From Struthio camelus (Eukaryota > Chordata > Aves > Struthioniformes > Struthionidae), in contig NC_090967.1 of NCBI RefSeq assembly GCF_040807025.1, forward strand, positions 6,626,001 to 6,690,000: a stretch of DNA of 64,000 bases, in the 5' to 3' direction. The notes under the pieces were generated by a model. The model was not told the DNA's origin. It did not search any database and was given only the letters and a program-made list of their open reading frames with translations. Position 1 is the first letter of the stretch, and every line of letters starts with the position of its first letter. Positions 6,706-43,700 of this stretch are shown in pieces. The position numbers and the translations under genes are program-made.

Positions 6706-9700
6706 CTACTTTTGGCTGTTGTAAGCCTTGTGCCTCTGGTTCATGGGGTTTTCTGGAGACTTCATCCACTCCTTCTTGAGGAGCTGCTTGAGCTGGGAGA
6801 GGCGCATGTTTGGGTTCTCTTGCTTCAGGCGCGGCAGATTGACCTCTTCAAAAGCAGTGAAGGCAGCTTTCATCCGGCGCTCCGGGTGCCGGTCCAGATC
6901 ATTGGCAACACTGTCAGAAACACAGACATGCATCAGAGACACCTCCCTGCAGGCACCAGTCCCTCGCCCAGCTCTGATCCCCTGTCAGTGCAACAAAGTG
7001 AATGCAGAATAACTTGACCGATAAAGTAGAAAACCCTACAACACTTGGCCCTACCCACTTTGAAAACCCGCTACAGAAGGTCAGGGCTGGGATGCCAGTT
7101 CTGGGGGAGGGAATGTCTGCTGAACTTCTCATAAGGAAAGCGTCCCTTCAAAGGGGAGCACTGCTGTGACGCAGCCAAGTACCTGAGGACAGCAATGGCA
7201 TCTTCAATTGTCCTGGCCTCCACTGTTCCTTCCTCCAATACCCTTCTGTTGATGTTCTCTTCCAAAGGAACCTCCAAGTGAGTTTTCTCCTTTTCCACTG
7301 CACAAAAGGAAGGAGGATAGGGAAAATGTTAGAAGTCAAGTTCAATCTGTGTAAAAATCTGTGTAAAAAAACCTTCAGAAGAGGCAGAGTCTCTTCCAAA
7401 CATCTGGCTGACAAGCACTTTGAAGAAAGCGCTGGCAAGACTCAAATCTACAGCCACATTTTAGGCACAGTCCTGGAAATTAAAGGTGCCTGTTTTGCAG
7501 CTCTCTGCTTCTCCCTCAAAGGCGAGAAGAGATTTCTTTTTCCTCATTTCAATGTGTGGGGCTAGACACCAACACAGCAAAGCCCACGGCACTGAGAGAA
7601 TAGCCGCAGGGTGCTCTAGCCTTCAAACCACCTTTCCTTCAGGGACAGCAGATCTTTCTGCTGCCCAGCCTCCCATGGCAGTCAGGGTCTTTCTTCTATG
7701 GAAAGAAGGAAGGGCTGCACCAAACCTGTGTCTGCATTCTCCTTCTGCTGCTGGTCTTTTCTGATTGTCTCCTCAATCTGGGCCCTGGTGACTTTGCCCG
7801 GAGTGACCTGCTTGGGCGACTTCCCTTTCAACTTTGAGTCTTCCTCTTCTAGCAGACGCTGCAGTTCCTTCTTGCGCTCCAGCTGCTCCAGTCGCCGCTT
7901 CTCCCTTTCCTCCTAGAAGGGCAAAGAACCAGGTCACCTCTGCCCCTGCTGCCCTCATTCACCTGCATAGCAGAGGGATCAAACTATTCCTTACAGGAGC
8001 AGGAAAGAGCTGCTTGAAAAGAAACAAGCACCTCATTTCCAAAGCTAATTGAGTACCGACCTTGCCTTATAGGAAAAGATGTTGGCCAGTTCCCCGCCAG
8101 ACCTCCAACAAAGCAGCGATAGCCTGGCCTGTCCCTTCAGACTAGTAATTCCTCAGTCCCTGCCCAGTCTGCAACCACACTGGTTCCCTGTGATGTCAGG
8201 GCTGCGAAATGTAACCCCGCTGTCGAGAAAGAGCACAGAGTGCCAGCCAGGACTGCTGACAATCAGGGTAAGTTTTCCACTTTAATTTTAATAAGTGGCT
8301 GGAGGTTAAAAGTTCAGCAGTTGTTTGAGACAAACCAGTTAGGAGGCTGAACTCGCTCTCAGGTCTTACTCAAACTCTCCCTAAGAGCCAGGGCATGGGG
8401 TTAGACTGAACTCCCCGCACTATGCGGCTCCTCTCGTGGAGTACTTTCAAATTAACACAACAAGTTTAAGAGCCACTTTGTCCTCTACGGCTCAGCCAGG
8501 ATTGACCATACAACAGGCCCTTAGGGGCTTTCAACACTTTGGTTTCAATTTTTTTTTCTCCTTTCCCAAAGTTCGTAAGCTTTAGAAAAAAAAAGAGAAA
8601 GAAACCACAAATGAGCATCTTTTTGTCTAGGTCAGGTCAGTGTCACAGGCCACAAAGTACCTCGTATTTAGGTTAGTTACATGAATACTCTTAATTATGG
8701 GTCTCATCTATTATTCACAGGGATGGCACGACTTAACTCATCGAGTCTTAACAGAACGGGTTCTACTCAAAAGAAGCTGTGCAGCAAAACAACTGCAGTA
8801 GTAACACAAGCTGCTTTGTTCATCGGTGTTTAAGGAGTAGGAACAGAATTATACACACCAGGGTAGGGCCCGCTCAGAGACAGTAAATAAGGCTGGGGTT
8901 AGGGTTAGGCTGGTGAGACTTAACAATTGCAAGTTGCTCCACAGCTCAATCATTTAAAGGAAAACCCATCAAAACACAGTATGGAAGCTCACAAATACTC
9001 AATCAAAACATGCCCCACGGCTGCTGCTTCCATCAACCACAATAAGGACTAAGCCTTTCAATCCAGATTGAGGAGGGGAAGACTTGCCTACCTCCACTTC
9101 CAAGCAACTGTGACCAAGGATGGGAAAAAAGCCATTACAGGGACAAAGCTTTCATTACAATTGGCAGGCTTCAAATTCGTGGTCATTAAGTGCTTAGTGC
9201 TAGTGCCTTGAGTTGCAATGCCACGGTAACTGGACCGTGCGTGACATCCAAGTGCCAACTCATTTACTCGAAACAGGGCCTTTCCCTACCCACTGCTTTC
9301 CTGTTGGGCCCCTCCCTCTTTTAGTAAAGACTGAGCAAACACAGTTACTGAACCTCCCAGATTAGCAGGGACTTATAGTCACTCCTGGATTGGAGGGGTG
9401 TCACACGAGGGGAGGGGGACTTTGCACTAACAGTTTATACACAAAAATATACCTGGGCAAGGGCAGCCACAGGTGCTTTCCTTCCTGTACCCATCTTCAT
9501 TTTACACAGCATAGGATAGCTCCAATTCCAGCTAGGATCTCCAGCTCAGCCACCAGAATCTACTTGAACACCACGCAGTTTTAAGGAGGAAAGTAGGAGA
9601 AGCAACGAGACTGAAGAGATTATTGTGCCAAAACAAAGAGGGCCACACGCTTTCCCCTCTTTGCCCTGGGTGACTCAACAAACCTGTCGCCGAGTGCTGC

Positions 9701-16617: not shown

Positions 16618-17949
16618 CCCTCAAGGTGCTCTGTAAAGGTGGAAGAAAGCAAATGCACAGTTCAAAATCCTTGCCCTGGCCAGGATCACGGGTTTACCAT
16701 AACCCTTGACAAGCAGGAATAGCTTGAGTCCAGATCACGAAAATTCCCTTTTGTTGTTGCCTCAGAGCATTTCAAAACCCTGGAAAGAACAGCTCCAGCA
16801 GTGTTATAGCTCACCCAGGAAGAGCTCTGCTCACTCCACCCCAGATTATAAGTAAATTGGTGACAGTTCCTTCCACTTATGTGTTGCGGTGCAACAAATC
16901 AAGCTGCTGAGTTCCTGGTACTGAGTCAAAAGCACCACTGCCACATGAGCCAAAACATTCTCCCCAAACTTACGCTGCTGAGTCAAAATGAAAGCTGGGT
17001 GCTTTCATTTTGCACTAGCAGGCTCTATGGCAGCAAGCTATGGAGAAGTTACTGCTAGCAGCAGAGAGGGCTAACACAACATAAACCCTATATCGAGCCC
17101 CCTGACTAATTATACAGAAACACACTCATGTGGTCACATTTAGCCTGGATAAATGACTACACTGAGATGCTGCATTAATTTCACTTACATCACCAAGGCA
17201 GGAAAAAAAAAAACTAAAAAGCAGTTGAAATAGGAGCTAGAAAAGAAAGAAAATTAACTAGACACTACAAAAGGCCTCTCCTCCTCAGCGCGCTGCCCAT
17301 GTTGATACCAAGTACTCGGCCTCAAGCCTTTGCTTTTAATAGCAGATTAATGTTTGATAAAGAACACAAGAAGCAACAAAAAAGGGCTGCCATTTAGAGT
17401 TTATTACTCGAATCGCAAGCTTTTTAAAGTCTGGGTTGAATTAATTCCCCTGTTTCCTGACATGTGCTGATAACCCTTCTTGAACACTGCGATCTGGGTC
17501 AGGCCCCAAGGAAAGGCTGCGAGAGAGCGCCCACAACACGTCGGCGGGTCAGGACACCGCATCCATCCGCGGCGCAACTGCCCGCAGCCTGGAAGCGGCC
17601 GCAAGGGCCCAGCCCCGCTCCAGATCCGGGAAACGGAGCTGGCCTGCCCCAGCCAGCCCCACTCAAAGGCTGGGCCCCTCCCTGAGCAGACCCCCACCCC
17701 TGCCCCACACCAGGGGGCTGGCATCCTCCCCACAGGGCCCTGCAGAGCCCCCCGCAGCCCTGCTCCTCCCCCACAGATCTCCAGGGGCCTCCGCGTGCCC
17801 CCTTCCCTGCTGCTCAGCACCTGACAAACCTTCCCCCAAACCCCTAGAGCCTTTGCCCACCCTCACTGCCCCCAGTCCTTCCTCCCCATCGCTCCCTTGG
17901 TCTTCCTCTCCCCCCCCACCATTACCCCCTTGCTTTGTCGACCCCTAGG

Positions 17950-18490
17950 CCTTACCTCCACCCCCCCCACGCCCCATATCCCCTTAGGCCTTCTTGTATC
18001 TCCCCCCTAGGCCTCCCCCAACCCCCTCGGCTCCCCTTAGGCCCTCCTCCGTGTCCCCCCCATCTCCCCCTAGGCCTATCTCTGCACCCCCCCCCGCCCC
18101 ATATCCCCTTAGGCCTTCTTGTATCTCCCCCCTTCTCCCCTCTAGGCCTCCCCCAACCCCCTCGGCTCCCCTTAGGCCCTCCTCCGTGTCCCCCCCATCT
18201 CCCCCTAGGCCTATCTCTGCACCCCCCCCCGCCCCATATCCCCTTAGGCCTTCTTGTATCTCCCCCCTTCTCCCCTCTAGGCCTCCCCCAACCCCCTCGG
18301 CTCCCCTTAGGCCCTCCTCCGTGTCCCCTCCATCTCCCCTTAGGCCTATCTCTGCACCCCCCCCCGCCCCATATCCCCTTAGGCCTTCTTGTATCTCCCC
18401 CCTTCTCCCCTCTAGGCCTCCCCCAACCCCCTCGGCTCCCCTTAGGCCCTCCTCCGTGTCCCCTCCATCTCCCCCTAGGCCTACCTCCGT
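17950..18490. repeat. ~126-136-bp C-rich minisatellite, about four copies
   Basis: The phrase CCCTTAGGCCTTCTTGTATC recurs at about 17,981, 18,107, 18,241 and 18,377, giving units of roughly 126, 134 and 136 bases. Each unit also carries the phrases CTCGGCTCCCCTTAGGCCC and CATCTCCCCCTAGGCCTA, so a shorter sub-repeat is nested inside. The strand is almost free of G outside AGG. It lies just downstream, in transcript order, of the presumed first exon of CCDC124, so it is probably intronic. Confidence 0.9.
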
Positions 18491-18539
18491 CCCCCCATCT
18501 CCCCCTAGACCTCCCTCCGCCCCTCGTCCTCTCCCCATC

Positions 18540-18990: not shown

Positions 18991-19059
18991 GCCCGCGCGC
19001 GACCGCGCACACGCGGGACGCCCGCCACGCGCCTCCCGCGCCCACACACGTCCTGCTCC

Positions 19060-19922
19060 CATGTGCGTCCCATTCCCACGTGGCCCGTGCCCATGCGTGC
19101 CCCATTCCCGTGTGTCGCGTTCCCATGCATATCCCGTTCCCACGTGTCCCATTCCCACGTGTGCCTCATTCCCATTTGTGCTGTGCTCACGCGCATCCTG
19201 TTCCCGTTCCCACACATGTCCCGTTCCCACGCATGCCCCTTTCCCACACGTGTCCCTTTCCCACGCATATCCTGTGCCCACGCGTGTCCTGTTCCCATGT
19301 ATGTCCCATGCCCGTGTGTCCTGTTCCCACGCGTGCCCCGTTCTCGTGTGTGCTGTGCCCATGCACGTCCTGTTCCCACACATGTCCCATTCCCACGCAT
19401 GTCCCATGCCCACGCATGTCCCATTCCCGTGTGTCCCATGCCCACGCATGTCCCGTCCTTTGTGTCCCATTCCCATGCGTGTCTCATTCCCACGCGTGTC
19501 CAGTTCCCAAGCGTGTCCCGTTCCCACGCATGTCCTGTTCCCGTGTCCCGTTCCCACGTGTGTCCCGTTCCCGTGTGTCTCATTCCCACGTGTGTCCCGT
19601 TCCCACGTGTGTCCCGTTCCCACGTGTCCTGTTCCCACGTGTGTCCCATTCCCGTGTGTCTCATTCCCACGCGTCTCGTTCCCACGCGTGTCCCGTTCCC
19701 GTGTGTCCCGTTCCCACGTGTGTCCCGTTCCCACGCGTGTCCCATTCCCGTGTGTCCCATTCCCACGCGTGTCCCGTTCCCACATGTGTCCCGTTCCCGT
19801 GTGTCCCATTCCCATGTGTGTCCCGTTCCCACGCATGTCCCGTTCCCGTGTGTCCCATTCCCACGCGTGTCCCGTTCCCACGCGTGTCCCGTTCCCGTGT
19901 GTCCCATTCCCACGCGTGTCCA
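19060..19922. repeat. ~17-bp minisatellite of TTCCCACG(T/C)GTGTCCC, ~860 bp
   Basis: A short-unit tandem array alternates GTCCCGTTCCCACGTGT, GTCCCATTCCCGTGTGT and close variants. TTCCCAC, whose complement is GTGGGAA, occurs more than twenty times, and many copies also contain CACGTG. The long open frames on both strands (for example plus 17,994-20,954 and minus 18,738-20,888) translate to periodic SHVCPVPTRVPFPCV-like or HGNGTHVGTGHA-like peptides and are artefacts of the array. The array lies between the CCDC124 promoter and the SLC5A5 3' end. Confidence 0.9.
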
Positions 19923-20115: not shown

Positions 20116-23100
20116 CTACACGTCCGTCTCCTGCAGCAGCTGGGTGGCGGCGGCGGCGGGGGGCTCGGGGGGCCGCGGCCAGCCGCCCGCCTCGGCCGGC
20201 CTCCGCGTCTTGGCGATGTCCCGCCACAGCACGCCCGGGGGCGGCCGCTCGGCCCGTCCTGCCGGAGAGCCGGTGCCGCGGGAAGCGGGGGCGACCGCGG
20301 CGCCACCGGCTCCCGTCCCCCCCTTCCCCGGCCGCCGCGGCCATCGCCGGCCTCCCGGCGCCTCTCACCTGCCAGGGCGCTGGCCAGCGCCCCCACGGCC
20401 ACGGTGCCCAGCGTGCCCAGCGCCCCGTAGTACAGGTAGGACACGGCGTAAAAGCCGCCCGCCGCCGCCGGCCTGCGGGCAGAGCGGGGCCGAGGGGCGG
20501 CGTGGGGCAGGAGCCGGGAGGGGGGGGACGGGGGGGGGGAAGGCGCCGTTGCAGCCTCCCCCTGCCCCAAAACCCCACCGCCGCTCACCGTGCCGGGGCC
20601 GTGCCCGGGCCGGGCGGGACGGTGCCGTTGAGGCCGGCGCCGTGGTCGTGCCGCGGGCAGAGGGCTCCGGAGGCCGGCAGCGCGCCCGTGGTGCCGGCGC
20701 CCGGCGGGTGCACGCTGCCTCCCACGGCCACCCAGGAGGAGAGGGCCAAGCCGGCGCCCAGGCCCACCAAGACTCCCTGCGGCGGAGGAGAAGGATCGCG
20801 CGGCGCCCGGAGAGCTCCCGGCCGGCGCCCGCACCGCGGCGCCCGACCCCGCGCCTGGCCCGTTTCGGCCCCGGCCCCCGCGCCGCACTCACGGCCGTGT
20901 TGCACGCCGGCACGAACATGCCCAGGACGAAGGCTCCCAGCAGCGGGCCGCTGATGGCCCCCATGACGGTGAAGGAGCCCTGGAAGACGCGTGGCGAGCT
21001 CTGCCCAGGCGCCCGCCGCAGCCCCTGCCCGTGCCCGTCCCTCCCGGGAGCCCGGCGGCACCGGGATGGTTCCTCCGAGGTGTCACGGAGACGGCGCGCA
21101 GTGCTGCCCCGAGGCCTCGGCGGCTCGCGCGCCCCGGCGAGCTCGAGGGCTCTCCTGCAGCCGGCGGCGCGTGCCGGGGTGCCCGCTCGGCCGGGCAGAG
21201 CCGCAGGGGATGGGGCCGGCCCCGGGCGCCGGGGCTCACCTGCAGCACGCCGCTGCCGAGCAGGGAGGCCAGCGCTGCCACCGTGATGCACGCGGTGCCG
21301 TAGATCAGCGCTGCGGAGGAGACAGGGAAGGCTCAGGCAGCAGCGCGGTGCGGCACAGCATGGCATGCTGCAGCACAGCATTGCGTGGCACAGCACCGTG
21401 CCGTGCAGCACAGCATGACGCTGTGCAGCACGGCACAGTGCAGTGGCACGGCACGGTGCTGTGCAGCATGATATGGCACAGTGCCGTGCAGCACGGCACG
21501 GTGCAGTGCAGCACGGCACAATGCAGTGCAGCACGGCACAATGCAGCGCAGCACGGCACGGCACAGTGCAGTGCAGCACAGCACAATGCAGCACAGCATG
21601 CCATGGCACAGCGCAGTGCGGCACGGCACGGCACGGCACAGCGCAGTGCAGCACAGCACGGCGCAGTGCAGCACGGCACAACATGGCACGCTGCAGCACG
21701 GCATGGTGCGGCACAGCGCAGTGCAGCACGGCACGATGCAGTGCAGCACGGCACAGCATGGCACAGCGCAGTGCAGCGCGGCATGGCGCGGCATGGCAAC
21801 GCTGCAGCACGTCATGGCGCGGCACGGCGCAGTGCAGCACGGCACGGCACAGCACAGTGCAGCACGGCATGGCGCCGCATGCTGCAGCGTGGCGCGGCAG
21901 CCTGGGCACCTGCCCGCTGCCGGCCCCACTCACACAGCCCCTTGGAGACGAGGGCCAGCCTCCGCGGCGGCAGCGCGGGCATCCTGGGCTTGATGAGGTC
22001 CTCGACGGTGACGGCCGCCATGGCGTTGATGCTGGTGGAGGCGGTGCTGGGGCGAGGGCACAGGGCGGCGCTGAGCCCCGCGGCGGCCCTCGGGCAGGAG
22101 GGGCCTGAGCACCCCTCCGCGGGGGCCGCGGGGCAGAGCGCCGGCCTCACCTGAGGGTCCCACTGTACGCGCAGGCCAGGAACAGCCCCGGCACCCCTGG
22201 GTGCGTCTCGAAGATGTCCAGGACCAGGTAGGGCATGTACTGAGGGGGGAGATGGCTGCGTCAGGGGGCCAAGGCGGCACCTCTGCCCGGGCTCGGGGCC
22301 CCCCTGCCCTCCCCAGGGGAGCGCAGACCCCCCTGCACCAGGGCTGAGACGAGCACCCAGGTGCTCCTCTCCGGCCCCCTCTCCGTTCCGCCTCCTGCCT
22401 CGCTGCCCACAATTTGCCGCTCGAGAGGGCAGGTCCCGGCTGCCGGCGGCGGGGGCCAGCACCTGGTCCGGGGCCGAGATGTAGCCGGCGAGGAGGGGGT
22501 CGCAGTCCTTGTACAGCGCAAACATCACAATGCCACAGGCCACCGCGCTGGAGACGATGACGAAGAGCCCCACTTGATTCACCAGCAGCGCTCTGCAAGC
22601 ACAGGCGAGATCGCAGCCCGGCCGGGCCGGCACAGTGCCCGGGCACCGCGCCAGCCTGGCCCGTGCACGGGGAGGAGTCCAGGCCGGTGGCCCTGGGGGA
22701 CAGCGCCCCTTCCCCCACCGCCTGCCTGGCACGGCAGGGCTTCCAGCGATGCGGCAGCTGGGCTGGCAGGGGATGCACATCTTCGCTGGGGAGCTGGGTC
22801 CATGCACAGGGGTTACGGGGTCCATGCAGGGGTGCAGGGTCTGTGCAGGGGAGCTGGGTCCATGCACAGGGGTTATGGGGTCCATGCAGGGGTGCTGGGT
22901 CCATGCACAGGGGTTACGGGGTCCATGCAGGGGTGCAGGGTCCATGCAGGGATGCTGGGTCCATGCACAGGGGTTACAGGGTCCATGCAGGGGTGCAGGG
23001 TCCGTGCGGGGGTGCTGGGTCCATGCACAGGGGTTACGGGGTCCATGCAGGGGTGCAGGGTCCGTGCAGGGGTGCTGGGTCCATGCACAGGGGTTACAGG

Positions 23101-24970
23101 GTCCACGCGGGGGCTTCAGGGGAAGCCCTAGGGGGCCGGGATCAGGGTCCCCGCAGGGGTCAGGCTGGGAGCACTGTCCCCACCAGGGCAGCCCGTCCCC
23201 TCATGACCCCCCCGGCCTTGCAGACTCACATCTTCGCCTCCCTCTCGCTCTTGCAGGCCACGTAGCGCTGCACCTGGGCCTGGTTCACGCCGTACATGGA
23301 GAGCCAGAGCAGCGTGCCGCCCAGCAGGAAGGTCCAGAAGGTGTACCGGCTCCGCGGGTCGGGGTTGAAGCTGGCAGAGCGGCACGCGGCCAGGGCAGAG
23401 GGTGAGCCGGGGCCGGCACCGCCGGCACAGCCATCCCAGCGCCCGGCTCTGGCAGCCAGCAGCCCAGCGACGGGGCCGGTGCGGGCTCAGGACCGTCACT
23501 GCTCCAGCAGCTCTGCGGCTCCTCCCCGGCACGGGGATGGCCGGGCAGCGTGCATGGGGGTGCAAGGACTCACTCGCCGAAGTTAACCCTGGAGCCGTTG
23601 GCCGCGATGGCCAGGACGCTGGCGGGGCCCCCGGCCAGCAGCATCCCCCGGGCGATGACGGCGACGAAGCCGGAGAGCATCACGAAGACCTGGAAGACGT
23701 CGGTCCAGACGACGGCCTTCATCCCGCCCTGCAGGAGACGGGGCCGTGCATGAGGGCTGGGGCACGTCCCCCGTGGCGCCCGCGGCCGCCCGCTCCCGCG
23801 CTCACGATGGTGGTGTAGAAGGTGCAGACGGCTCCCGTGGAGAGCAGCGATGCCCAAATGTCCAGGCCGGTCACTAAAGGAGAAACCACGATGCTGAGCA
23901 GAGCTCCGGCCCCTCGGATGAAGTTGAGGGGGAAAAACGGGCTCAGCCATCCCCGCCGGGACGTGCCGGGGAGCGGGGCGCCGCCGTACCCTGGTTGAGG
24001 ATCAGCGCGGGGGCGTAGATGACGATCCCGGTGTAGAGCATCTGCGGGAGAAGGAGGGTCAGGACCGGCGCCGGAGCGCTGCGGACGGGCGGGAGGCCGG
24101 GAGGGCTGCAGGGAGCCCGCGGGTCGGCGGCGATCAGAGCCGGCCCCACGGGGACCGGGGCAAACGTGCCACGGCTCCCGCACCGTGTCCAAACACAGTG
24201 TCCGGGCACTTGGAAAACACTCGGGTTTTCATTCAAAACAGCACCCCCGCAAGGCCCCTCCGCGGCGTTATTTGTGTTGAACGAGGCGGCGCGGCAAACA
24301 CGAGCACGAGAACCCGAGCGTTTCCTCCGGGGCCAAGGAAAACGCCGAGCCCGGCTGGGAACAAGCCCCCCGCCACGGCCGGCCCCGGCGGTGGCTACGC
24401 ACCGTGGCCACCACGTACTGGACGGTCCCGCACAGCCGGACGCTCCTGCTGAACCGCCGCTCCAGGTACTGGGGACGCGGAGAGGGACGGCGTGGAGGGA
24501 GGGTGCCGGGGCCGGTCCGGGAGCCCCGGCGCCTGCGCTCCGTCCGTGCCCGGGCTTCGCCGGGCGGCCAGCGCTCCCCGCTGCCGGCGACCCACCTCGT
24601 AGGTGCTGGTGAGCCCCAGGCGGTGGAAGACGGGCAGGAAGAGCAGGGCGGTGAGGAGGGTGCTGAGCAGCTGCCCCAGGCACATCCAGAGGAACTTGGC
24701 GCCGTAGCGGTACGCCTCGGCCGGCACCCCCAGCACCTGCACCGCCGACATGAAGCTGGCCGAGAGCGACAGCCCCACCGGCACCGCCGACATCCGCCGG
24801 CCGCCCGTGAAGAAGTCGTCCGCGGTCTTCTGGCCGCCCCGGGAGAGGGCTTGGAAGAGCCCGATGCCCGTGGAGACCAGCAGCATCAGGCCGAAGACGC
24901 CGTAGTCCGCGAGGCTGAAGGTGCGCGTCTCCGGCCCCCGCGCGTCCGGGCTCCCCGGCGCGGCCAGCGT
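20116..24970 (-). CDS. SLC5A5: SLC5A5, sodium/iodide symporter (NIS)
   Basis: Sodium-coupled iodide importer of the SLC5 family, a basolateral membrane protein of thyroid follicle cells. Fourteen coding exons join in frame: 24970-24596, 24468-24403, 24041-23990, 23873-23806, 23728-23574, 23370-23230, 22592-22463, 22239-22151, 22046-21934, 21310-21240, 20979-20893, 20776-20589, 20472-20369 and 20258-20116 (TAG). The product would be about 593 aa against 643 in human. Diagnostic blocks include [81 protein letters not shown] and [18 protein letters not shown] near residue 231 and an NGT in the last loop are glycosylation sequons, as in human. The tail is shorter than human but ends ETDV, a class I PDZ ligand (human ends ETNL). 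No ATG is in frame in the first exon. The best start is an ACG at 24970-24968 preceded by GCCGCC, so the 5' end is uncertain. A possible acceptor at 25001-25000 would allow an upstream exon. Confidence 0.93.
21345..21905. repeat. ~20-bp minisatellite (GCACGGCACAGTGCAGTGCA) in an SLC5A5 intron
   Basis: A 560-base array of GCACGGCACAGTGCAGTGCA and variants fills the intron between the exons at 21240-21310 and 21934-22046. The open frames over it, rich in RHGAVQHGT or CRAVPCCTAL peptides, are translations of the repeat. Confidence 0.9.
22790..23115. repeat. 40/60-bp minisatellite in an SLC5A5 intron
   Basis: The phrase GGGTCCATGCACAGGGGTTA recurs at 40- or 60-base spacing, alternating with GGGTCCATGCAGGGGTGCAG. 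The array lies in the intron between the exons at 22463-22592 and 23230-23370. The open frames over it are repeats of [13 protein letters not shown]-like peptides, not genes. Confidence 0.9.
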
Positions 24971-25001: not shown

Positions 25002-27592
25002 GCGGGCGGACGGAGGCCGCGGCTGCGCTGCCGGCGCCGGGGACGGCCGGAGCCGCACGGACACCCGGCAGCAGCAAAGCTGGAGCGAAAGGAAAGTTTG
25101 TGCAGTTATCAAGTGACGTGGAGCGCGCGGCGGGAGGGCTGAGCGCGGGGCGCAGGGCAGCGCCGGGCTGCACGCAGCGCGCGGCGGCGGCGAGGCAGGA
25201 GCCACCAAAGGGACAGACCTTCCTCAGCAGGGAGAGTGCCCCAAATACCTCCCGGTTGGAAGCATGCGTGAAATGCTCGGTCCGCTCTGCTCCTGAGCAG
25301 CGCAGACGCCCCTCCTGCGCGAACCCACGGCCCGGGGCAGCGACGGCCCCCGCGGGAGCCGCAGCCGGCGGCAGAGCGATGCCGAAAGCGGCTGCAGCCG
25401 CGGAGAGCGCAGCAAGCAGGGAGGGAGGGAGCAGAAAAACCGGCCGAGCAAAATTCATCTTTAGGCAGAGGACAAAACAAAACCAACGCGCGCATCTGTA
25501 CCAGAACGAGCCCGTTCCGCGGTGGCTCCACAAGGAGCGGGACCCCGCCGAGCTGCCAGAAAAAGGGAAGCGGAGCAGAGCTGGGGACGGCCGGCGGCCC
25601 CCGGGCAGCCCGGGGCAGCGGCGGGATGCTCGGCGCCGGCGGGCGAGGAGCCTGCTCCGATGTCCTTGGGGGTGTTGCCGTGCCGGAGGGGAGAGCAAGG
25701 CCACGCAGCCCCGGCGGCGAGGGGCTGTCCGTGCCTCGCACCCCTTCGGCGCCGGCCCGCGGGGCGGGAGCTGCTCCGGGCACCGGCGGCAGGTTTAGGG
25801 CACCGGGGAGGGACGTCAGGCGCTGCGTGGGGGGTTGGCGTCCAGCTGGGTGTCCCGAAGGGGCGAAGCCCATAACCCCTTCCCGCCCGCTCGCCCCGGC
25901 GCCGGCTGGCTCCTGCCCTTTCCTGGCCGCCCGGGACGGGTGCGGGACCCTGGCCCAGGGTCCGAGGGTGGCTCAGCCCCTGCCCCGCCGCCCGGCGCTC
26001 CCGGCCTCCCTCCCTCATCCCTGCAAACACGGGGACGCCTCGGGCGGGCTTGTGAGCCTGCCCGGAGCTGCGGATGCCAAGTTTCAGGCAGCGGGAGCTC
26101 CTGCGGGGGGCTGGCGCAAGCCCCTGCCGGGGGCCAGCCGGGGCGACGGCGGCGGCCCCGACCCGCCGAGGTGCCTCCGTGCCATGCCGGCACCGCCGCG
26201 AGCCAGAGCGTGGCCCCGCCGCCAGCCCGGCTCGCTGCCGGCACTGCGTCCCGGGGCGCCCCGGGGCTCTGCGCCGGTTCAGCGCCTCCCTGCCCACGGC
26301 GAGAGCGTGGCCGTGGCCGGGTCCCGGGGCGGCACCGGCAGCCCCCCCCCGTCCCGCGCCTCCGGCTTTGCCGCTTCGAAGAAATGGTTAGAGCAGCAGA
26401 AAGGGCAAAGCAACAAGCGGTGGCTGCTGGGGCCCCCCCCGCATCCGCCAGCCGCCGTGCAGAGCTGCACGGCACGGGGCCAGGCACGGCACGGCACAGC
26501 ACGCACACGGCGCCGCGCGCACCCAGGCAGCGCCCAGGCAAAGGGTCTGACGCCGTCCGCATCCCTTCCCGGGGGGGAACCCAGGGTGCATCCTCCCCGT
26601 GCCCGGGCGAGAGGAGGGGCCGGGGCGCAGGGATGCTCTGGCCTGGCCGGCGGTTCCCGCGGCACGAGGAGGTGCCAGCGCTGGCCCTGGATGCCCCTTT
26701 GCCCCCCCGGTTGGGCCCTTCTTGCCCTCAGTGGTTCCTTTCTGCCCCGGGGCCCCGTCACCCCGCTCCCTCGCCAGGAAGTCCCCAGGCAGCTCAGAGA
26801 CTCTGTGGGCAGGAAGGAAGTCAGAAAGGGGATTTTTTTTTTTTTTAACTCTCCCCTTCTTCACTCGCAGCCTCCTACGCAGCCCAGAAAGCCCAACGCC
26901 GGAGGTGCCAGCGCTGCTGGGACCCTCTGCCCGGGGCCGGAGGACGCCGGGCGCCAGCCAGGCCGCGGGGAGCGCAGCAGGTAGCGCGGCGGCACGGCCG
27001 CGCGGGGGGCTTCGCGGGTCGGGGCACGGCGCACGGCTGGCGAGGCGAGAGCGGCGGTGGGAAGGGCTGGGGAGGACCGGTTCGTCCAGCTGGGAAAACT
27101 GCTGCGGCGTGCCTCGGTTTCCCCTTCTGCAAAACAAGTGCCGGGAGGCCCAGGACGGGCTGGTCGCAGCCCTAGGCATGCTGCGGGCTTTGCTGCGGGG
27201 TTTTAACCCCGGGGCAGGAAGGATGCCGGGGGAGCCGCGTAGGGAAGGGTGCGCGGGCAAGGCGAACGCCCCAGCTGCTGCCGAGAGCCCCCGGGCACGG
27301 CTCCAGCGCCTGCTCCTCGCCGCGGCCCCGAGCAAGCGAGCACCCGGTGGCAGGGTTTAAACCCTGCCGAGTCCCTGGGCGACCCTGCTGCTGGCACCCG
27401 GCAGGGCAGAGCCAACACGGCCGTGCAAGAGATCCCCCCCGCAGCGGGGGACCAGAGGGTCCTTTCCCAGCGGCGCGGCTGGGATCCCCCCCCCCCCCCC
27501 CGCCAGCTGGGGTGATGCCGGGGCGGGGGGCGGACGTGCCTCCGTGGGGGACAGCACCACCCTTGCGCTGAGCACCCTCGCTGTCGTGACAG
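25002..27592. other. GC-rich stretch between SLC5A5 and JAK3, no gene recognised
   Basis: About 2.6 kb of CpG-rich sequence between two divergent genes (SLC5A5 minus, JAK3 plus). It should hold both promoters and their untranslated first exons. Many long open frames exist on both strands because stop codons are rare at this GC content. Their products are low-complexity and overlap one another, so I call none. A T-run lies at about 26,830-26,846. The human order has RPL18A between JAK3 and SLC5A5; I found none of its conserved peptides here. Confidence 0.6.
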
Positions 27593-27600
27593 CACCCGCC

Positions 27601-35909
<8,309 letters not shown>

Positions 35910-36505: not shown

Positions 36506-36654
36506 TTTCAGTAGAATTTGTCAGCAGGGTGACAGCAAGACGGAGAGGGAGGGAGAGGAGACCCGCGCGCGCACCTCTCCCCGCTGAAAGAACCGCTGCA
36601 GCGTGAGCTCAACCCTCCTATTAGCCACCGGCGAATCCCTTTGGCGCGGAGCAA

Positions 36655-36945
36655 GCAGGGCGCTGGCTCCCGCTGGGTGCAGCCGCCCGAGCAGCATGCA
36701 CCGGCACCCGGGGGGACCCGGGGGGTCCGCTCTGCTGGGCTGCCGGAGCGTGGGGCAGCGGGGAGCGGGCTGCGGGGGCGCAGCCGAGGCCGGGGCCCCC
36801 GCACTCACCGGCGGATCGCCCGGGCAGCGGGCTCCGGCGGGCGCCCCCGCACCGGGCGACGATGGCCCGCATCAACTCCCGGCCACGAGGGCCAGGCTCA
36901 CCTGCCGGCGTGTGGTGCACAGCACCCCCAGGCTCAGGGACCCGC
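36655..36945 (-). pseudogene. INSL3: INSL3-like relaxin-family relic between JAK3 and B3GNT3
   Basis: INSL3 lies between JAK3 and B3GNT3 in human. Here the minus strand carries both halves of a relaxin-family hormone. At 36890-36835 it encodes GRELMRAIVARCGGARR, like the B chain (human INSL3: GHHFVRALVRVCGGPRW). At 36702-36655 it encodes ACCSGGCTQREPAPC, like the A chain (human CCLSGCTQQDLLTLC). A donor (GTGAGT) follows the B-chain exon at 36808, about where relaxin genes have their intron. The relic looks broken. The first B-chain cysteine reads Arg (CGT), although one extra T before it would restore LCGREL. The A chain has seven rather than eight residues between its last two cysteines. No stop follows the A chain, no clear signal peptide is seen, and the visible splice phases do not match. 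It lies convergent with JAK3, whereas I recall human INSL3 and JAK3 in the same direction. Sequencing error is an alternative. Confidence 0.6.
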
Positions 36946-36970
36946 TGGGCTTCGCTCCTCATCTCGCTGC

Positions 36971-36976
36971 TTATAT
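36971..36976 (-). promoter_or_regulatory. TATA box upstream of the INSL3-like relic
   Basis: The minus strand reads GCATATAAGCAG, a good TATA element, about 80 bases upstream of the B-chain motif. Initiation would be expected near 36,945, and the ATG at 36962-36960 would then lie upstream of the start site. It supports a former or present minus-strand gene here. Confidence 0.45.
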
Positions 36977-37136
36977 GCGGCCGCTGCAGCCCTGAGCATC
37001 CCGGGCTGCACGTGGTAGCCCACGGGGCGGCATCCCCCCTGCCGGTGCCCCCGCATCACCCACAGACTCGTGCCAGGCTTGCCCCCACCCCCGGGAAGGC
37101 ACCGGACCGCACACGCTCGTTTACACCACGCACTCG

Positions 37137-37455: not shown

Positions 37456-38595
37456 TCAGGTGCTGGGGTAGATGCCCACCCTCCTGCCGCAGCGCAGCTG
37501 GGGCTCGTGGAGGGCCTGCCACATCAGCACCATCTCGTAGGGCGCGAAGCGGTGCACCAGCAGCAGCTCCCGGTAGTAGCAGGGGTCGAAGGGCTCGGCC
37601 TTGGAGGGCACGTGGAGGCCCGTGGTCCGGATGCCGGCGTGCAACGCCGGGGCCAGCCCTGCCTTCTCCAAGCACATGCCCAGGTAGACGTCGTCGATGG
37701 GGAAGAGCTCGATACCCCGCGACTCCCGGTAGATGATGCGGGCGGTGAAGCCGGACATGAGCATGCCGCCGCCTCCGCAGTAGGGCGGGTACCACTCCGA
37801 GGACGTCACCTGCGTGGGCACGTAGTACTTGCTGCCCTTGCTGCGGATGGGGCCCACGTTGGTGATGAGGTGGCCCACGAAGAGGTGCTGGTCCTTGGCC
37901 TCCCGGGCGGCCAGCGCGAAGCGGATGACGTTGTCCGTGTTGACGAAGACGTCGTCGTCCCCGTTGAAGATGAAGCGGACGCCGGGGCAGTTCTCCTCCA
38001 GCCAGGCGTGGAACAGCACCTGCTTCAGCGTCAGGTTGAAGAAGGTGTCCCAGAAATCCCACTGCAGGACGTCGCCGTGCTCCCGCTGCTCCAGCCGCAG
38101 CAGCTGGTTCAGCTTGGGCGCCTCCGCGCCGCCGGGAGCCACCCCGCACAGGAAGACCCGGCGGACGCGGGCCCCCGCGAACACCCGCTCCTGCCCCCAC
38201 GTCTTGCGGATCACCTCCCGGCGCACGTAGTTCCCCGGCGAGGACTTGATGGCCAGGAGGAGGAAGATGCCGGGGGAGCGCGCCGGGCCCCCGCACTTCC
38301 CCGGCACGTCGAGCAGCGCGGGGAACGCCCGGCAGTGCTTGTAGCGCAGGAAGTCCTGCACGTGGCCGGGCAGGGCGGCGAAGCCGGAGACGTTGTGCAC
38401 CGACGCGTTGGCGGCGCAGGGGGCGGGGGGCTCGGCCGAGGGCGGCGGGAGCCCGGGGGCGGCGCTGGGGCTGGGCTCGGGGCCGGCGGGCGTGCGCGGC
38501 CGGAGCCACGCGTCGTGCGACAGCAGGTAGCAGAGCCCCAGCAGCCCCACGGCACCCAGGCCCCACGTCTCCAGCCTGTAGCGCCGCTGGGACAT
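37456..38595 (-). CDS. B3GNT3: B3GNT3, beta-1,3-N-acetylglucosaminyltransferase 3
   Basis: Golgi glycosyltransferase of family GT31 that adds GlcNAc in beta-1,3 linkage. In mammals B3GNT3 extends core 1 O-glycans, including those of L-selectin ligands. One exon carries the whole frame of 379 aa (human 372). I start at ATG 38595-38593 because a splice acceptor (CTCTTGCAG) ends at the base before it, so upstream codons are intronic. The protein is type II: a short basic tail, one membrane segment at about 9-25, and a proline-rich stem at about 34-60. The catalytic domain shows KSSPGNYVRREVIRKTWG (117-134), FFNLTLKQ (185-192), the metal-binding GDDDVF (212-217), VGPIRSKGSKYYVP, YCGGGGMLMS, FPIDDVYLG (298-306) and FDPCYYRELLLVHRF. 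NLT at 187-189 is a sequon. Closest human match is B3GNT3, supported by its place between INSL3 and FCHO1. The untranslated 5' exon was not located. Confidence 0.95.
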   Translation of the reverse strand: MSQRRYRLETWGLGAVGLLGLCYLLSHDAWLRPRTPAGPEPSPSAAPGLPPPSAEPPAPCAANASVHNVSGFAALPGHVQDFLRYKHCRAFPALLDVPGKCGGPARSPGIFLLLAIKSSPGNYVRREVIRKTWGQERVFAGARVRRVFLCGVAPGGAEAPKLNQLLRLEQREHGDVLQWDFWDTFFNLTLKQVLFHAWLEENCPGVRFIFNGDDDVFVNTDNVIRFALAAREAKDQHLFVGHLITNVGPIRSKGSKYYVPTQVTSSEWYPPYCGGGGMLMSGFTARIIYRESRGIELFPIDDVYLGMCLEKAGLAPALHAGIRTTGLHVPSKAEPFDPCYYRELLLVHRFAPYEMVLMWQALHEPQLRCGRRVGIYPST

Positions 38596-40708: not shown

Positions 40709-43700
40709 TCAGGACCCAGCCAGGTAAATCCCTGCAGGAGGAACAGCAGCAAGGAGGGGGTGAGCGCAGCCGGATGAGGCCCGCGCCCAGACGGATGCGT
40801 CCCCGGCACCAAGCCCAGCCGCTCGCGCCGTCCCCAAGCTGGGCACTGCCGTGGGGCAGGCCCCAACGTGGGCAAAAGGGAGCCTGGGGCCACGGGGAAG
40901 GGACCTTGTGCACCCCGGGGCCATGGGGAAGGGACCTTGTGCACCCCGGGGAAGGGAGCTTGTGCACCCTTGGGCCATGGGGAAGGGACCTTGTGCATCC
41001 CAGAGCCATAGGGAGCAGGGAAGGGACCTGGGCACCCCAGGATTGTAGGGAGCGGGGACAGGACCCTGTGCACCCCGGGGTCATGGAGAGCAGGGATGGG
41101 ACCTCGCGCACCGCAGGGAAGGGACCTCGCGCACCCAGCAGCAGTACCTGTGGCAAACCTCTTCTTGACCAGCGACATGCGGTAGCCAGCGCTCGCCAGC
41201 TCCACCTCGACGCCCGACAGCGTGCTGCCCTCGCTGGTGAACTGGGCCGCCACGGGGCTGGGCTTGCTGGGCCCGTAGAGGGGCTCCCAGCTGGCCGAGA
41301 GCCGGCCGCAGCCTGGGGGCGAGCGCAGAGCTGGAGGGGACGGCGCAGAGCCCCTGTCCCCTCGCGCAGGGTGGCCGAGCAAGGACCCAGCCGGGGGCCG
41401 GCCCCTGCTCTCCCCGCTCCCCAGGGGCAGGCACCCCCCAGCCCCTGCCCTCCCCGCGGGGCCGGGGCAGCCTCACCTCCCTGGCCCGGGGCCCCGGGAA
41501 TGTCCAGCAGCCTCCAGAGCAGCCTCTTCTCCTCCAGGTTCCTGCAGGACACACGCACGTGGCGTGGGCCGTGGCCGTGTGTGGCCGTGGGCCACAACCC
41601 TGGGCCGAGACCCCCCGGCGACCCCAAACCCCCCAGCTCCGTCCCATCCTTAGATCCCCCGGCAGCCCCAAACCCCCCAGCTCCGTCCCATCCTTAGATC
41701 CCCAGACGACCCCAAACCCCCCAGCTCTGTCCCATCCTTAGGCCCCCCGGTGACCCCAAACCCCCCAGCTCCATCCCATCCTTAGATCCCCTGGCAGCCC
41801 CAAACCCCCCAGCTCCGTTTCATCCTTAGGCCCCCCGGCGACCCCAAACCCCCCAGCTCTATCCCATCCCTAGATCCCCTGGCAACCCAAATCCCTCAGC
41901 TCCATCCCCTCCCTAGACCCCCAGGTGACCCCAAGCCCCCCAGCTCCATCCCCTCCCTAGACCCCCAGGTGACCCCAAGCCCCCCAGCTCCATCCCCTCC
42001 CTAGACCCCCAGGCGACCCCAAGCCCCCCAGCTCCATCCCCTCCCTAGACCCCCAGGCGACCCCAAGCCCCCCAGCTCCATCCCCTCGCTAGACCACCAG
42101 GCGACCCCAAGCCCCCCAGCTCCATCCCCTCGCTAGACCACCAGGCAACCCCAAACCCCCATCCCTGTCCCATCCCCACAGCTCCCACAGCCAGGGCATC
42201 CCTGTCTTCCCCCCCCCCATTCCCCCAGCCTGGGACCCCCCCAGCACAGGGAGCATTTTGGGGCTGGGGAGTCCCGATCCCCCCGGCCCCGCTCACCAGC
42301 TGGCCGCGGGCTGCAGCCGCACGTTGGTGACGGGCTCCTCCACGGGCAGCAGCACCTGGACGTTGGCGAGGGGCACGGGCACGGCCAGGGCGCCGGCGTT
42401 GTAGCTGTACTCCACGCTGACCCGCGTGGCGCCCGGCGAGCAGTCCCAGCGCACGCAGAGCTGCAGCGGCGCCGAGCCCGGGCCCAGCTTGGAGAACTGC
42501 GGGGGGAACCGGCGAGCGGCTCAGCGGGGACCGAAACCCCTGCTGCCCCCAGGAGCCGGGCACGGCGCCCCGGAGTCCCGGCCCCTTCCCCGCGCCGCGG
42601 GGCTCACCTGGTACTTGAGGAGCGCCACGTTGTAGTAGGAGGCAGCCGGGCTCTGCTCCGCCTGCTTCTGCAGGTGCCCCGTCAGCGCGGCCATGTTCAG
42701 CCAGAAGTCCTTGGTGCTGGGGTCGCTCTGGGACGGGTCGCTGCGGGCAGGGGGGCACAGCGCTGCAGACCCCTGCCACCGCCTGCGCCCGCTCCCCCGG
42801 GCACCCCAACCCCAGCTCCCCATCACCTGCTCCCAGGCCCCCCACTTCCTAACCCTGCCGCTGCCTTGGCTGGCTCCGAGGATGCCCGGCCACCCCGGGC
42901 ACCCCGTTCCCCGCTCCTGGCTCCCAGGATGCCCAGGCACCCCGTTCCCTGCTCCTGGCTCCCAGGATGCCCGGGCACCCCAGGCACCCCGTTCCCCTCT
43001 CCTGGCTCCCAGGATGCCCAGGCACCCCGTTCCCAGCTCCTGGCTCCCAGGATGCCCAAGCACCCCGGGCACCCTGTTCCCGGCTCCTGGCTCCGAGGAC
43101 GCCCAGGCACCCCGTTCCCAGCTCCTGGCTCCCAGGACGCCCAGGCACCCCGTTCCCAGCTCCCGGCTGCTGCCTCGGAGGACACCAGCAGCCTGCCGCG
43201 GGCCCAGTGCCACCGCGCTCGCCCGGCCCCCGCACCTGTAGAGCAGCTCGGCGTTGGGCAGGAACTGCTCGATGGCGCCGGCGTTGACCAGGCGGAAGCT
43301 CAGCACCGGCGGGGCCAGGCTGCCGCTGAAGACGCGGACGATGCCGGCGGGGAAGGACATGGTGAGCTCGCCCGTGACCTTCACCAGGCAGCTGCCGGGG
43401 AGAGGGACGGCTCAGCGACCGCCCCGGGGGCCGCGGGAGCCGCCGGGCACGGCGGGGAGGGACGCAGCGGGCACGTGCGCAATGCCCCCCCCCGGACCCC
43501 CGGACCTGTCGGAGTCGCGGCCCTTGAAGTAGGCGTGGATGTACTCGGTGAAAGCCGTGGCCACGGGGAGCGCATCCTGCGAGCCCAGCACCACGGGGCT
43601 GGGCCCCCGCGACAGCCCTGGGGAGGCAGGCAGGGGTCAGAGCCCGGCCCGGCCGGGGCCCCCCCTCCCGCCCCCCGCCGGGACCCACCGAGCGCAGGCT

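Follow-up and report, generated by a model that had tools for sequence, protein, structure and literature searches.

Relaxin-family hormones are recognized by a B chain of the form C-G-x10-C-G and an A chain of the form CC-x3-C-x8-C, and their genes have two exons with a single intron in the C-peptide. A working INSL3 is made with a signal peptide ahead of the B chain and a C-peptide between the B and A chains, which are linked by disulfides. INSL3-driven testis descent has been dated to the therian ancestor, and the INSL3 of monotremes is described as more similar to RLN3 and as not sharing the Arg-to-His change that therians have at B12 (PMC10877632). In zebrafish, insl3 marks Leydig cells (PMC2805637). 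Mammalian INSL3 has been placed between MYO9B and JAK3 (PMC10877632), with its 5' end adjoining the 3' end of JAK3 (PMC9019166), and where remnants of the gene are described in afrotherians the gene order is conserved, with B3GNT3 in the locus (PMC6023123).

For birds the published record is mixed. Three ligand genes have been mapped in chicken, in which RXFP2, the INSL3 receptor, is reported to be a pseudogene (PMC3310001). For birds as a group two relaxin-family ligands, RLN3 and INSL5, are predicted, and RXFP2 appears among the receptors predicted for them (PMC9676923), a listing that sits badly with receptor loss across all birds. For the dot chromosomes of birds, a 2026 study of missing genes reports that no pseudogenes of the lost genes were met (PMC12954441). 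No INSL3 relic in a bird is described in the titles, abstract openings and passages covered by our literature search, which does not show that none has been published. Here we describe an interval of ∼340 bases (36,640-36,980, minus strand) in the gap between JAK3 and B3GNT3 that is likely to be such a relic.

The locus and its gene neighbors

The window, by which we mean the whole 64-kb stretch of DNA analyzed, holds CCDC124, SLC5A5, JAK3, the relic, B3GNT3, an FCHO-type gene and a MAP1-type gene, in that order:

6709-6984, minus strand: C-terminal exon of CCDC124 (Pfam Ccdc124, 2.5e-31)
near 24.7 kb, minus strand: SLC5A5 (sodium/iodide cotransporter match, 1.6e-50)
30513..35909, plus strand: exons of JAK3 (SH2, pseudokinase and kinase parts; kinase part matched to solved JAKs)
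37456..38595, minus strand: B3GNT3, as we take it to be (Galactosyl_T family, Pfam, 3.2e-39), a single uninterrupted ORF of 379 aa
near 47.8 kb, minus strand: FCHO-type exon (sole PDB match FCHO2)
near 57-61 kb, minus strand: MAP1-type gene (MAP1-type match)

The comparison of JAK3 with solved JAKs covered the kinase part, which scored 438.5 bits with JAK3, 419.0 with an unlabelled kinase chain and 416.6 with the best labelled JAK2. The name B3GNT3 is our assumption from the position of the Galactosyl_T gene, and the FCHO-type exon and the MAP1-type gene are assigned by position to FCHO1 and MAP1S. With the CCDC124 exon the gene block extends past SLC5A5. We take the block running from CCDC124, SLC5A5 and JAK3 to MAP1S to be that of human 19p13.11, with relative strands alike. 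The relic lies inside this block in the JAK3-B3GNT3 interval, with the 3' end of JAK3 (35,909) facing its 3' side and B3GNT3 adjoining its 5' side. RPL18A, which in the human genome lies between SLC5A5 and JAK3, was not found at 25100-30500 with short motifs, and is either absent or was missed. An Rfam scan of the window at gathering scores gave 0 hits, and bacterial promoter and terminator patterns, meaningless for vertebrate DNA, likewise numbered 0. The compactness and GC-richness of the locus make a bird source likely; a CR1-type tail repeat, the one marker of birds used, gave 0 matches. Long GC-rich tandem arrays occupy 17942-18523, 19050-19921, 21353-21899, 22788-23121 and 41608-42160.

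The relic itself can be divided, from its 5' to its 3' side, into the following parts:

36970..36977, minus strand: TATA-box-like CATATAAG, a putative promoter element
36960..36962, minus strand: sole ATG in frame upstream of the B core, within the open frame
36834..36887, minus strand: B-chain-like core RGRELMRAIVARCGGARR, from its translation and relaxin-profile match, with an RxxxRxxV motif and CGG (Arg) at the Trp position
36885..36887, minus strand: codon CGT (Arg), read in the B frame, where the first B-chain cysteine would be expected
36732..36808, minus strand: possible phase-1 intron of 77 bases, GTGAGT...CAGCAG, predicted to join the B frame to the A frame
36718..36729, minus strand: possible RTPR basic cleavage site ahead of the A-like chain, its function suggested by the letters
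36655..36699, minus strand: A-chain-like core ACCSGGCTQREPAPC, from its translation and profile match, with CC-x3-C-x7-C

A first-pass annotation of this DNA had read two minus-strand peptides here, and both are exact in sequence and follow the order B then A on the same strand. The cores are separated by 134 bases (∼135), and from the second B cysteine (36,851-36,849) to the CC of the A chain (36,696-36,691) the distance is ∼150 bases, as had been given. The B core carries RELMRAIV, an instance of RxxxRxxI/V, the conserved B-chain motif for receptor binding (PMC9676923). The TATA box and GTGAGT donor cited by the annotation are also both present, the TATAAG at 36,975-36,970 and the donor starting at 36,808, but the donor does not count as evidence on its own, because GGTGAGT is common in the window (10 found versus 6.6 expected). 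TATAAG occurs four times in the window against 2.1 expected: three copies fall in the first 17 kb, which is richer in AT, and the fourth, at the relic, is the sole occurrence in 17,501-64,000. The in-frame ATG starts 13 bases after the first base of this TATAAG and is therefore probably upstream of any start site that the TATA box would set. Between the B and A frames six frame-compatible splice pairs were listed, two of which use GTGAGT in phase 1; the predicted 77-base intron, ending at 36,732, would put RTPR ahead of the A part in the candidate structure. A weak two-copy tandem duplication of 25 bases spans 36808-36857, from the end of the B core to the donor, and could represent one event altering the C-peptide part.

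That the interval lies at the syntenic site of INSL3, as the annotation held, is upheld by its place between JAK3 and B3GNT3; its orientation, on which the annotation did not remark, departs from the expected arrangement. The relic is on the minus strand and JAK3 on the plus strand, so that the two are antisense, with the A-chain side of the relic facing JAK3 and its TATA side facing B3GNT3, whereas in mammals it is the 5' end of INSL3 that faces the 3' end of JAK3 (PMC9019166). Simple collinear orthology therefore fails and an inversion is needed, and it is probably INSL3 alone that is inverted relative to mammals. No comparable relaxin-like site lies on the plus strand of the gap (best B score 7.92 bits, best score on the first 12 A columns 12.09). 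The flanking repeats, inspected as a possible trace of inversion, have only short arms, the longest of 22 nt at 73%, and are not convincing.

Similarity to the relaxin family and the choice of paralogue

Profiles were built from the chains of human RLN3, RLN2, INSL3 and INSL5 and searched in six frames of the 64 kb. The B-like site scored 23.27 bits, compared with 9.66 for the next best site. When one residue was allowed to be missing, the A-like site scored 20.76 and was outranked by one tandem-repeat site, at 31,048 (22.08); on the first 12 A columns, ungapped, the A-like site was the best in the window (22.61). The site at 31,048 (minus strand) outscores the A half but lies inside JAK3 and is repetitive, and it was rejected as an A chain. 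The array at this place (30957-31441, between JAK3 exons, with units of ∼22, 42 and 106 bases) contains several relaxin A-like sites and can mislead motif scans; the bare pattern CC-x3-C-x7to9-C is found at 13 places in the window, 11 of them in the repeat array at 21.4-21.9 kb.

Two kinds of control were used. In 300 windows shuffled in 1-kb blocks with dinucleotides kept, the B score was never reached and the A score was reached in 15, while none held B and A in order on the same strand, within 3 kb of each other, with an equal sum. A Gumbel fit put p for B at 0.0047 over the whole window and at about 1e-4 over 1.5 kb, and p for A at 0.062 and about 1.5e-3, respectively. With column-permuted profiles run on the real window, the B score was reached by 2 of 500 profiles and that of the first 12 A columns by 10 of 500; restricted to the JAK3-B3GNT3 gap, neither score was reached by any of the 500. 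The gap is a fair search space because gene order predicts INSL3 there. Either half alone is thus only suggestive across 64 kb, and at the predicted site the evidence is strong. Similarity in excess of random sequence was therefore found, and the relaxin-family origin proposed in the first-pass annotation stands, on the gap between the best and next best B scores and on the lack of any equal pair among the shuffled windows. Searched against PDB sequences, the B-like peptide gave two matches, both relaxin-3 B chains, at weak E values (0.082 and 0.12); the same search with the A-like peptide gave no match, and Pfam run on both ORFs gave 0 families at E up to 10, with the insulin/relaxin family profile unmatched.

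Which member of the family this is cannot be told from the letters. The B core had BLOSUM scores of 50 with RLN3, 41 with both RLN2 and INSL3, and 24 with INSL5, and the A core had scores of 39 with RLN2, 38 with INSL3, 36 with RLN3 and 35 with INSL5. The motif GCTQ(Q/R)(D/E) after CC had been regarded as distinctive of INSL3, but these scores, with B nearest RLN3 and A nearest RLN2, do not single out INSL3, and we rejected GCTQ as proof. The INSL3 identity rests on position. At the position of the derived His of therian INSL3, our own alignment shows Arg in the relic.

Departures from an intact hormone and the age of the probable decay

The annotation's view that the gene is no longer intact agrees with what we found. 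Arg stands where the B frame should have its first cysteine, leaving one in-frame cysteine of the two in C-G-x10-C-G. The L-C context that relatives have at the first cysteine fits another frame on the 5' side, and it is in that other frame that the most hydrophobic upstream stretch lies, a modest one (mean 1.50 over 10 residues, versus best values of 0.34 in the B frame and 0.85 in the third frame). At the first-Cys position no homopolymer run of at least 4 is present. The conserved Trp, found in all four human peptides used, is replaced by Arg, and the A loop is x7 rather than the x8 of the family, one residue short. Judged by hydrophobicity only, no signal peptide is evident after the in-frame ATG, and neither a usable start with signal peptide in the B frame nor a prompt stop after the A chain is evident; the next in-frame stop after the last A cysteine comes only at 36,510-36,508. 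The B-to-A spacing is also short and has room for a very short C-peptide only. In mouse, the Insl3 intron alone is given as 739 bases (PMC9738330). Errors from a careless local assembly are made less likely by the unbroken 379-aa frame of B3GNT3 and by the lack of a homopolymer where the first Cys should be.

To gauge the remaining columns, leave-one-out profiles were made without those of the damaged positions (first Cys, Trp and short A loop). Here the candidate scored higher than the omitted intact human peptide in three of four cases for B (RLN3 being the exception) and in four of four for A. When the B core was mutated at random, its score fell by ∼4 bits at 0.05 changes per site and by 14 bits at 0.2. 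Given these losses of score, cores that match like intact paralogues have probably drifted little or remain under constraint, which suggests that the loss may be recent or that some residual constraint may act. Cores kept this well do not fit a long period of neutral decay, and this counts against a simple old relic.

Competing explanations and described counterparts

We regard it as likely that the interval is a decayed, non-functional remnant, a unitary pseudogene, of INSL3 at the JAK3-B3GNT3 site, probably inverted relative to mammals. In such a remnant the B and A cores would have survived, with the first Cys, the Trp, the A spacing, the signal and start, and the stop missing or altered, and because of those losses no correctly bonded, secreted hormone would be made. 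The Cys and Trp losses could each have arisen from a single T-to-C change, or that of the Cys from a frame shift, and as a guess such T-to-C changes would fit GC-biased conversion on a GC-rich chromosome. A fuller history, which we put forward as possible but doubtful, is that INSL3 of the bird line persisted until recently at its ancestral locus, flipped with respect to JAK3, and is now undergoing GC-driven erosion at its cysteine and tryptophan codons. If that recent loss were true, the lineage would not have been INSL3-free from its base, and living relatives may keep a working hormone that annotation has overlooked.

The good state of the cores, which outside the damaged positions score like intact family members, could instead mean that INSL3 is working, or was until very recently, with its start, signal peptide or first cysteine in missed exons or alleles. 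The possible in-frame phase-1 splice with its RTPR site and the TATAAG, the sole one in 46.5 kb of GC-rich DNA, would suit such a gene. We nevertheless think it improbable, in view of the five departures (first Cys, Trp, A-loop length, signal/start and stop), the lack of a homopolymer where the cysteine is missing, the modest hydrophobicity of the upstream stretch and its location in another frame, and a B-to-A distance that fits a very short C-peptide only.

Chance resemblance in GC-rich intergenic DNA draws on the marginal standing of each half when taken singly over the window (2 and 10 of 500 permuted profiles, 15 of 300 shuffles for A, Gumbel p of 0.0047 and 0.062), on the 13 occurrences of the bare A-chain pattern, on a strand opposite to the mammalian arrangement and on the lack of a Pfam match. 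It is made very unlikely by the ordered B+A pair, unmatched in 300 shuffles, and by each half being unmatched in 500 permutations inside a gap that gene order had singled out without reference to the motif. We give equally little credence to a broken copy of another relaxin paralogue, of RLN3 or RLN type, duplicated into the gap. This would explain the inverted strand, and RLN3 is indeed the closest match to the B core (50 versus 41 for both INSL3 and RLN2), as RLN2 is, by a small margin, to the A core (39 versus 38 for INSL3); yet a chance landing exactly in the INSL3 gap is unlikely, the INSL3 of monotremes is itself more similar to RLN3 (PMC10877632), and the window has no second B-like site near such a score.

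The annotation linked such a loss to internal testes. We rejected loss of testis descent as the cause, since INSL3-driven descent arose in the therian ancestor (PMC10877632), and insl3 already marks Leydig cells in zebrafish (PMC2805637). Paired loss with RXFP2 would be the better frame, because chicken RXFP2 is reported to be a pseudogene (PMC3310001); the prediction of RXFP2 for birds (PMC9676923) weighs against it. With a readable INSL3 remnant, the loss of the ligand could be dated at an exact site and compared with the fate of the receptor, and a check made for surviving working copies; such a remnant would also bear on the role of INSL3 before its therian use in testis descent. The relic described here could serve as the precise place to test when INSL3 vanished.

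Among described systems, the INSL3 of monotremes, at the RFLC-II locus (PMC10877632), resembles the relic in adjoining JAK3, in its RLN3-like character and in being without the Arg-to-His change; the comparison is by description rather than letter by letter, and the monotreme INSL3 is described as genes, whereas the relic has no intact frame. The INSL3 remnants of tenrec, elephant shrew and manatee (Sharma et al. 2018, PMC6023123) are also broken, with lesions in the A and B chains, conserved gene order and B3GNT3 in the locus. Those are placental mammals in which testis descent was lost, whereas the relic is of the non-therian type (Arg, not His) and is inverted with respect to JAK3. The RXFP2 pseudogene reported by Yegorov and Good (2012, PMC3310001) concerns the receptor locus, in chicken, and the relic the ligand locus; as a loss of the receptor partner in a bird, it would fit a paired loss of hormone and receptor.
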